Below, in pieces: positions 18,073 to 27,542 of a DNA stretch of 37,729 bases; positions within the stretch are counted from its first letter, which is position 1; the number at the start of each line of letters is the position of its first letter. The translations under genes and the position numbers were made by a program. The stretch lies in contig JAHHGS010000112.1 of the NCBI GenBank assembly GCA_019359715.1, forward strand, positions 1 through 37,729. Direction: 5' to 3'. The notes beneath the pieces were generated by a model that made no database searches, was not told where the DNA came from, and saw only the letters and a list, made by a program, of their open reading frames with translations. This stretch comes from Aphanocapsa sp. GSE-SYN-MK-11-07L. Lineage in GTDB: Bacteria > Cyanobacteriota > Cyanobacteriia > Thermosynechococcales > Thermosynechococcaceae.

Positions 18073-18123
18073 GTAAAAATTTTGGGTAGCGCGGGCGAAG
18101 TCCGCGCTACCCAAAATTTTTAC
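18073..18123. repeat. Perfect 22-bp inverted repeat; candidate tRNA-Leu terminator or dispersed palindrome
   Basis: Arms 18073-18094 and 18102-18123 are exactly complementary over 22 bp with a 7-base loop (GCGAAGT). Each outer end is AT-rich (GTAAAAATTTT) and the core is GGGTAGCGCGG. It lies 34 bases downstream of the tRNA-Leu gene on the minus strand, so it could terminate that transcript. The GC core with a short loop also resembles mobile intergenic palindromes of cyanobacteria. Confidence 0.7.
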
Positions 18124-18156
18124 AAGTTCAGAACAACCAGATATGCAATAGGTCAA

Positions 18157-18239
<83 letters not shown>

Positions 18240-18248
18240 AAGCTGGCT

Positions 18249-26042: not shown

Positions 26043-26558
26043 TAAAATTTTCTGCTGTGGTTTTGGTGGAGACAGATTTGGTTTTTTAGACGCCTTCAAG
26101 TCGGCTGGCCATGATGATAATCCTTTACATATCAATACATGAAATTCATAATTCAAATCTTCTGAATTGAGATCACTCATCTTTAATTTTGCCTAAAAAT
26201 ATTGCTATTAAAGGCTTAAGCTAAAAGATACTGCCTGGCATGAGCAGCCTACTTTTATGAGAAAACTAACTAAAAACCCCAGGCAAAACCTTTTTATTAA
26301 TAAATGTTGCACGATTTTGATCCCGATGTTACGGTTTGTTGAGTAGGTCAATTCTGCTTACACGTTCGCTAGGAGGCATAAGATTCATGCTTCAACCAAC
26401 TTTGATTTTTAGCAATTTTTAGCTGCCAGAGCGATTCAGCCTTTGATTAGCAGTTTCAAGAGTTGATCATCGCGGCTAGAGCGTTAGCAGGTAACAAGCT
26501 AGCCCCTGTATCGTTAGTCGTTTCCAATCTTTTTGTAATTGTCATACCTGTTTCTCAA

Positions 26559-26579
26559 GCCTTGAGCTGGACTCAAGGC
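26559..26579 (+). other. Perfect 8-bp hairpin in the SDR leader
   Basis: GCCTTGAG (26559-26566), loop CTGGA, CTCAAGGC (26572-26579). It is the first element of the structured leader upstream of the SDR gene. A T-run (TCTTTTTG) lies upstream rather than downstream, so it does not look like a simple terminator. Confidence 0.55.
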
Positions 26580-26593
26580 CTGAACACCGCATC

Positions 26594-26663
26594 TCTCACT
26601 GCCAACTGAAGTCTCTAAAGCTCTTTTGGCTTCAGTTTGCGATCGCCCAAACGGGCAGTGAGA
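26594..26663 (+). promoter_or_regulatory. Nested stem-loop directly upstream of the SDR gene (candidate cis-regulatory RNA)
   Basis: The outer arms TCTCACTGCC (26594-26603) and GGCAGTGAGA (26654-26663) pair perfectly over 10 bp. Inside them AACTGAAG (26604-26611) pairs with CTTCAGTT (26630-26637), stacked directly on the 5' outer arm. The structure ends about 9 bases before GGAGG of the SDR gene, so it could control translation or be a structured small RNA. It matches no riboswitch class I know. Confidence 0.55.
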
Positions 26664-26684
26664 CCCCATCTTTGGAGGTTTTAA

Positions 26685-27542
26685 ATGAATATTCGAGCAA
26701 AGACGGCTCTGATCACCGGAGCTTCGCGTGGAATTGGGCGAGCGATCGCCCTTGAGTTTGCCCAACAAGGGGTGAAAAAATTATTGCTGGTGGCCAGAAG
26801 TCAGCAGCGGTTGGCGGAAGTTGCCGCCGAGGTGGAAGCCTGGGGTGTGGAGGCCGTCATCTTGCCCTTAGATTTAACCCAGCCGGTTGCCGTGAATGTG
26901 GCGATCGCTCAAGCCTGGCGGGATCATGGCCCGTTTCATTTACTGGTGAATTGTGCTGGCGTGGCTTATCAAACCCCGTTTCTGAACTCTAATTTGCTTA
27001 ACGTGCAGGCGGAGCTGGAAACCAACCTGATGGGAATGTACACGATCACCAGCTTGGTGGCCCGCCGGATGGTGGCCCAGCAGTCCGGCACAATCATCAA
27101 TGTTTCTAGCCTAATGGGTAAAGTTGCCGCTCCCACGATGGCCACTTATTCAGCGACTAAGTTTGCCATTTTGGGCTTTACCCAAGCCCTCCGCAGTGAG
27201 CTGGCAGCTCATGGGGTGCGGGTGGTTGCTTTTCTGCCTTCGCTGACGGATACCGATATGGTCAAGAACTTTCAACTGTTCCGCTGGATGAAGCCAATCT
27301 CTACGGCGAAAGTGGCCAAAGCGCTAGTGATTGGGCTGCGCCAAGAGTCACCCGAAATCTTGGTCGATTGGCAAAGTCGGTTAGCCCTCTGGTGCGGTCG
27401 AATTGCGCCTTGGCTGCTGGAGCTGATTGTGCGGTGGGCGGCCCCCAGTCCCCAGCCGACTGCTCCTCTTCGCCAGCCGATCAGCATTAACCTGTTTAAG
27501 CACAGCGCCACAGCCAGCGAGCAACCCTATCAGCAACTGTAG
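26685..27542 (+). CDS. Short-chain dehydrogenase/reductase (SDR)
   Basis: The 285-aa classical SDR has the Rossmann motif TGASRGIG (11-18), NCAGV (89-93), and the catalytic Ser142 (VSSLMG), Tyr155 and Lys159 (YSATK). It resembles NAD(P)-dependent 3-ketoacyl/ketosteroid-type reductases with a C-terminal extension (about 215-285) that includes a hydrophobic, possibly membrane-associating stretch (LWCGRIAPWLLELIVRWA). The substrate is unknown. GGAGG lies 8-12 bases before the ATG. The structured leader suggests post-transcriptional control. It converges on ruvC, 6 bases apart. Confidence 0.94.
   Translation: MNIRAKTALITGASRGIGRAIALEFAQQGVKKLLLVARSQQRLAEVAAEVEAWGVEAVILPLDLTQPVAVNVAIAQAWRDHGPFHLLVNCAGVAYQTPFLNSNLLNVQAELETNLMGMYTITSLVARRMVAQQSGTIINVSSLMGKVAAPTMATYSATKFAILGFTQALRSELAAHGVRVVAFLPSLTDTDMVKNFQLFRWMKPISTAKVAKALVIGLRQESPEILVDWQSRLALWCGRIAPWLLELIVRWAAPSPQPTAPLRQPISINLFKHSATASEQPYQQL

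Follow-up and report, generated by a model that had tools for sequence, protein, structure and literature searches.

The window, the whole 37,729-nt stretch of DNA that was analyzed, is part of the 5.1-Mb draft genome of Aphanocapsa sp. GSE-SYN-MK-11-07L. It contains an intergenic gap flanked by a gene for 5-formyltetrahydrofolate cyclo-ligase (TIGR02727, with a score above the family cutoff) and a gene for a classical short-chain dehydrogenase/reductase (SDR). The positions of the features are listed in Table 1. No RNA genes were found in the gap by either Rfam or ARAGORN. When the gap DNA was compared with 57 related genomes, two short matches covering 46 bases or fewer were obtained, and none of these genomes gave a long match to the gap. 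A scan for promoter-like sites found 1 against 1.2 expected, which is the chance level. Short open reading frames are present in the gap, and inspection of the aligned leaders revealed no short reading frame common to them that might encode a leader peptide. Many of the leaders carry a block similar to AGAAATRTCTYG approximately 60 nt 5' of the outer stem, P1. The Nostoc-type leaders have this block in common with the others, and it may indicate where the promoter lies; its counterpart in the window is weak and lies near 26534-26543.

Table 1. Features of the gap and of the SDR leader, in window coordinates
Feature	Position	Strand	Description and basis
Intergenic gap	26043-26684		642 nt; 5-formyltetrahydrofolate cyclo-ligase gene on one side, SDR gene on the other
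SDR gene	26685-27542	+	285 aa, PF00106; sole gene associated with the element
Upstream hairpin	26559-26579	+	8-bp perfect hairpin, GCCTTGAG-CTGGA-CTCAAGGC; direct reading
Two-tier stem element	26594-26664	+	P1 outer, P2 inner, long 3' internal bulge; direct reading, R1 match, covariation in relatives
P1, 5' strand	26594-26603	+	TCTCACTGCC; direct reading; aligns with GUCUCACUGCG of relatives
P1, 3' strand	26654-26664	+	GGCAGTGAGA (26654-26663) and conserved stem-end C (26664); reading, relatives
P2 inner hairpin	26604-26637	+	AACTGAAGTC (26604-26613) with GGCTTCAGTT (26628-26637); reading, fold
3' internal bulge	26638-26653	+	16 nt; octamer GCGATCGC at 26639-26646
Spacer, P1 to Shine-Dalgarno	26665-26673	+	9 nt; direct reading
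Shine-Dalgarno sequence	26674-26678	+	GGAGG of the SDR gene; ATG at 26685

The first-pass annotation had described an 8-bp hairpin followed by a two-tier stem that ends 9 bases before the ribosome-binding site of the SDR gene, and this arrangement was confirmed by direct reading. Both structures lie within the last 130 bases of the gap. The outer stem of the two-tier element is formed by 10 pairs between the two strands of P1. The core of the inner stem, P2, consists of 8 pairs between AACTGAAG (26604-26611) and CTTCAGTT (26630-26637), to which one G·U and one C-G pair are added. The octamer within the 3' bulge is known as HIP1. No terminator-like site was found within 26594-26685, and the element is thus not followed by an intrinsic terminator ahead of the gene.

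The folding energy calculated for positions 26540-26700 was -52.2 kcal/mol, compared with -39.2 ± 3.75 kcal/mol for shuffled sequences (z = -3.47), and none of the 200 shuffles folded as well. The fold of the entire gap is unremarkable (z = -1.07). The best-placed 120-nt stretch, 26554-26673, ranks 7 of 474 in the window, with a start that was chosen by hand and adjacent starts that rank from 13 to 48. Given these values, the fold is out of the ordinary, though not extreme. In the minimum-energy structure the innermost part of P1 is replaced by a small GCCC/GGGC hairpin within the 3' bulge, and the robust part of the element is therefore the outer six pairs of P1 together with P2. The strongest fold z-score in the scan of the window (-6.6) belongs to a nearly perfect intergenic inverted repeat, TTTTTGGGTAGCGCGG / CCGCGCTACCCAAAA, at 18074-18125 beside tRNA-Leu(gag) (18156-18240); this repeat could be a terminator that works in both directions, or else a small repeat element. 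A terminator-like inverted repeat, AAGAAAGGCACTTCC / GGGAGTGCCTTTCTT, which also has a high fold score, is found at 1684-1716.

Among 385 other genomes of the phylum, 77 carry an ortholog of the SDR with 56-73% identity (E ≤ 1e-80). The named loci are the nearest 80 of 399 confirmed SDR relatives; in these best 80 the orthologs are 66-74% identical to the SDR and all are cyanobacterial. One locus with a truncated SDR (L017) was left out, and species shared between the named loci and the genomes were left in the counts. A pattern recurs 5' of the orthologous genes, in which GUCUYAC and GURAGAC are followed after approximately 9 nt by GGAGG and then by the start codon. A covariance model (R1) was constructed from the leaders of 15 relatives, with the window excluded. 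Over 94 SDR-ortholog loci (492 kb, both strands), R1 gave 63 matches at E ≤ 1, of which 55 were at E ≤ 0.01, and all 63 lie immediately 5' of the SDR start codon, on the same strand as the gene. Fifteen of the matched loci were the seeds of the model; without them, 48 of 79 loci match. The element does not accompany the SDR gene in every case, since no R1 match was obtained in several of the nearer relatives (L007, L009, L011-L016, and L033). A stem finder that uses no alignment was applied to 93 leaders (L091, whose start had been misassigned, was left out). In 45 of them it located a stem of at least 7 Watson-Crick pairs whose 3' end lies 19-24 nt upstream of the start codon; dinucleotide shuffles gave an average of 4.6 such leaders per 93, and other genes of the same loci gave 17 of 181.

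For the analysis of covariation, an alignment (A3) was prepared; its 61 input loci were selected from the 94 once the R1 result was available, and 56 leaders were kept. In 47 of the 56, P1 is separated from the Shine-Dalgarno sequence by 9 nt, and the distance between the ends of P1 ranges from 36 to 77 nt. In some lineages P1 is kept but P2 is lost, and in several matches, among them L067, L080, L101, and L108, both P2 and the bulge are gone. Only 5 of the 56 leaders, the window among them, have a hairpin of at least 6 Watson-Crick pairs in the 50 nt on the 5' side of P1, and the upstream hairpin was thus rejected as a part of the shared element. The genome contains one exact copy of this hairpin and two sites with 2 mismatches. 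The hairpin is lineage-specific, and the two structures do not form one unit, because the first of them is not part of the conserved element.

Compensatory changes in relatives had been proposed by the first-pass annotation as a check of the structure, and such changes were found. In A3, 83.0% of the cells hold standard pairs, and two-sided changes were observed in 16 of the 18 pairs. Nine of the 11 pairs of P1 show two-sided compensatory changes, and P2 covaries as well. The covariation score was determined to be 0.264, compared with 0.181 ± 0.009 for shuffled alignments (reached by 0 of 500) and 0.060-0.128 when the pairing partners were slid. Since A3 had been fitted to the structure, the 41 leaders that were not seeds were checked separately. 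In these leaders standard pairs occupy 301 of 319 cells for the eight outer pairs of P1 and 179 of 217 for P2, whereas after sliding by 1-2 columns the paired fraction was 0.38-0.46 for P1 and 0.14-0.38 for P2. Mapped onto a tree built from the 56 SDR proteins, the 18 pairs show a double change from one standard pair to another on 27 branches, against 3-7 for slid pairs. Changes from Watson-Crick to G·U pairs outnumber those from Watson-Crick to A·C (57 vs 34), and this excess points to base pairing within mRNA-sense RNA more than to pairing in DNA or the antisense strand. A scan of mutual information, aimed at additional pairs or a pseudoknot, placed P1 and P2 pairs at ranks 1, 4, 15, and 41 of 3828 (counted from 0); with an effective depth of 29 and with unrelated pairs among the top ranks, no additional pairs or pseudoknot are claimed. 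RNAalifold returned no structure for a MAFFT alignment of 52 leaders, because this alignment had scattered P2.

The association of the element with a single gene was assessed with a model made from the 56 leaders, window included (R2), and with one that lacks the Shine-Dalgarno region (R3). With strict filters, R2 gave 14 matches in 386 genomes, one per genome, and all 14 lie directly before the SDR gene. When these 14 genomes and 6 more that carry the SDR were searched with relaxed filters, 19 of the 20 were matched at E ≤ 1, once each and abutting the SDR gene. R3 matched 10 of the same 20 genomes, again once each and at the same places as R2. At 29 SDR loci (L128-L156), R2 matched 17 at E ≤ 0.01. 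Over the 42 short loci of that search, these 29 included, two of its matches fell outside the leader and were at chance level, one on the plus strand of L141 (E = 0.83) and one downstream of the SDR gene in L152 (E = 0.51). With one match per genome at the SDR gene and chance-level matches off the leader, the element has not been convincingly seen at another gene. The SDR gene has no conserved neighbors in the 80 loci, the commonest neighbor family being present in just 24 of them. Operon context was rejected as an explanation for this reason, and the leader thus travels with the SDR gene itself.

The copy in the window is a divergent member of the leader family. R1 matched the window at 26593-26687 with 29.6 bits (E = 1.3e-4), and in the entire genome this leader is the single match at E ≤ 10 (E = 0.017). 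R3 did not recognize the leader in its search of the window; in an unfiltered search of the gap, R3 scored the leader at 6.0 bits and the same spot on the other strand at 7.0 bits. The R1 score of the window therefore leans on the 3' strand of P1 and the Shine-Dalgarno tail, and membership in the family rests on that strand, the Shine-Dalgarno context, the position, the spacing, and the two-tier order, and not on the inner sequence. The 3' strand of P1 in the window (GUGAGAC), the 9-nt spacing, and the two-tier order are all the same as in the relatives, and P2 is found at the same position with a different sequence. Relative to its near relative L006, one pair of P1 differs on both sides (C-G vs U-A) and the pairing is kept.

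No Rfam family was found at the leader in the window or in the orthologous loci searched, in agreement with the earlier statement that the structure matches no known class. At the gathering cutoff, Rfam 15 returned tRNA only for the window and nothing at the leaders of 20 SDR-ortholog loci, and at E ≤ 1 nothing was found at the leaders of 5 loci. A search of the window region with a relaxed threshold gave seven matches, all far below the gathering scores, which were dismissed as chance. Elsewhere in the loci, Cyano-1 RNA (RF01701, 44.1 bits) was found on the minus strand of L006 at 2750-2835, downstream of the SDR gene, and a match to NsiR1 (RF02399) precedes the SDR leader at 1608-1663 of L049 (Microseira wollei NIES-4236).

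The covariation, the fixed place before one gene, and the lack of an Rfam family support the initial proposal of a candidate cis-regulatory RNA, and the two-tier stem is probably an undescribed control element of one SDR gene. We consider it reasonably probable, with considerable room for doubt, that the stem is a cis-acting element in the 5'-UTR of the SDR mRNA, passed on together with this single gene across many cyanobacteria, that regulates the initiation of translation or the lifetime of the 5' region of the mRNA. Transcription would be expected to pass through the element into the SDR mRNA. P1 is placed 9 nt 5' of the Shine-Dalgarno sequence and would thus be touched by a 30S subunit that docks there. 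The likeliest action would be on translation initiation or on the lifetime of the 5' region, and P1 may be the site at which the ribosome and a trans-acting factor, probably a protein, make contact. The constancy of P1 and of its spacing, against a variable length and variable loops, suggests that the element functions at the ribosome site through P1 and its placement.

The resemblance to a riboswitch that was noted originally was not supported by the analysis. In such a mechanism P2 and the bulge would bind a small molecule, perhaps the substrate or product of the SDR, and so set P1 and the access to the Shine-Dalgarno sequence. An element of a 5'-UTR that is confined to one metabolic gene at a conserved spacing would suit this mechanism, as would the conservation of some unpaired columns of A3 (27, 31, 43, 44, and 105). 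The unpaired positions as a whole are weakly conserved, however, with few unpaired columns above 1 bit and most loop positions below it, and P2 and the bulge are missing from the lineages given above. A hairpin between the end of P1 and the Shine-Dalgarno region, which could compete with P1, is possible in several leaders, but it does not covary (63.9% of cells paired vs 64.2% after shuffling) and was rejected as the sequestering helix. Switching by thermodynamics was rejected as well: the mean exposure of the Shine-Dalgarno sequence was calculated to be 0.43 with P1 forced, 0.41 with P1 free, and 0.41 with P1 blocked. Since exposure does not follow the state of P1, folding alone gives no switch, and the expression platform is unsupported; in the absence of an intrinsic terminator, a transcription attenuator is not indicated either. 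The designation as a riboswitch is unproven and we regard it as improbable. With both switch ideas unsupported and no terminator present, an element of translation initiation or mRNA stability, probably the target of a protein, is preferred over a metabolite riboswitch.

It is also conceivable, if rather unlikely, that the leader is passive and that the stem stabilizes the 5' end or provides a standby structure for the ribosome with no regulated change. The constancy of P1 and its spacing amid variable loops, P2, and length is consistent with this proposal, as is the failure of folding to predict a switch, but P2 covaries too, and long-lasting restriction to a single gene that has no conserved neighbors exceeds what a general stabilizer would need. 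We give very little credence to an inverted repeat that acts in DNA as the paired operator half-sites of a transcription regulator. The strands of P1 are indeed conserved in sequence (GUCUYAC/GURAGAC) 5' of a single gene, but half-sites placed at the two ends of elements that range from 36 to 77 nt would not keep their phase, and two-sided changes in 9 of 11 pairs, like the excess of G·U over A·C, are what one would expect of RNA rather than of a binding site. It is equally hard to accept that the stem in the window is a chance structure that has just the Shine-Dalgarno context in common with the relatives. R3 misses this leader and its fold is not extreme (rank 7 of 474), but its place, its GUGAGAC strand, its spacing, and its two-tier order match the relatives, and the double difference from L006 preserves a pair of P1. 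More speculatively, the cis-acting element could represent a new class of ligand- or protein-responsive RNA for one cyanobacterial SDR, in which P1 is the switch and the fast-changing P2 is a mere scaffold; we hold this extension to be doubtful.

If a leader has been kept by compensatory change before a single uncharacterized enzyme gene in many cyanobacteria, then the amount of that enzyme would appear to be worth control at the level of RNA. One stem and one gene also offer a defined handle for finding the signal and thereby the role of the enzyme. Metabolite riboswitches with translational control place a structured leader close to the Shine-Dalgarno sequence of a metabolic gene. The SDR leader is similar in these respects and differs in having no strongly conserved aptamer core and an unsupported expression platform. 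Leaders that are bound by proteins to control translation, such as those of the ribosomal proteins, hold a stem close to the ribosome site. The SDR leader resembles them in the location of the stem and in a stem and spacing that are more conserved than the loops, whereas it precedes an enzyme gene with no conserved neighbors and its regulator is putative.

No published description of the SDR leader was found in the literature searched, which does not span all print, and no dehydrogenase or oxidoreductase is mentioned in the accessible portions of Weinberg et al. 2010 (PMC2864571) and Voss et al. 2009 (PMC2662882). The cyanobacterial motifs in those portions of Weinberg et al. 2010 include glnA, Downstream-peptide, psaA, PhotoRC-I, and psbNH. 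Like the SDR leader, these motifs are conserved structures that were obtained from comparative genomics and lie in possible 5' UTRs of cyanobacterial genes; unlike it, they are found, as described there, at other genes, and no Rfam model matches the SDR leader of the window or of the 20 ortholog loci. We rate the SDR leader as a new family within a known kind, the structured mRNA leaders, and one that adds to this kind a family absent from Rfam.
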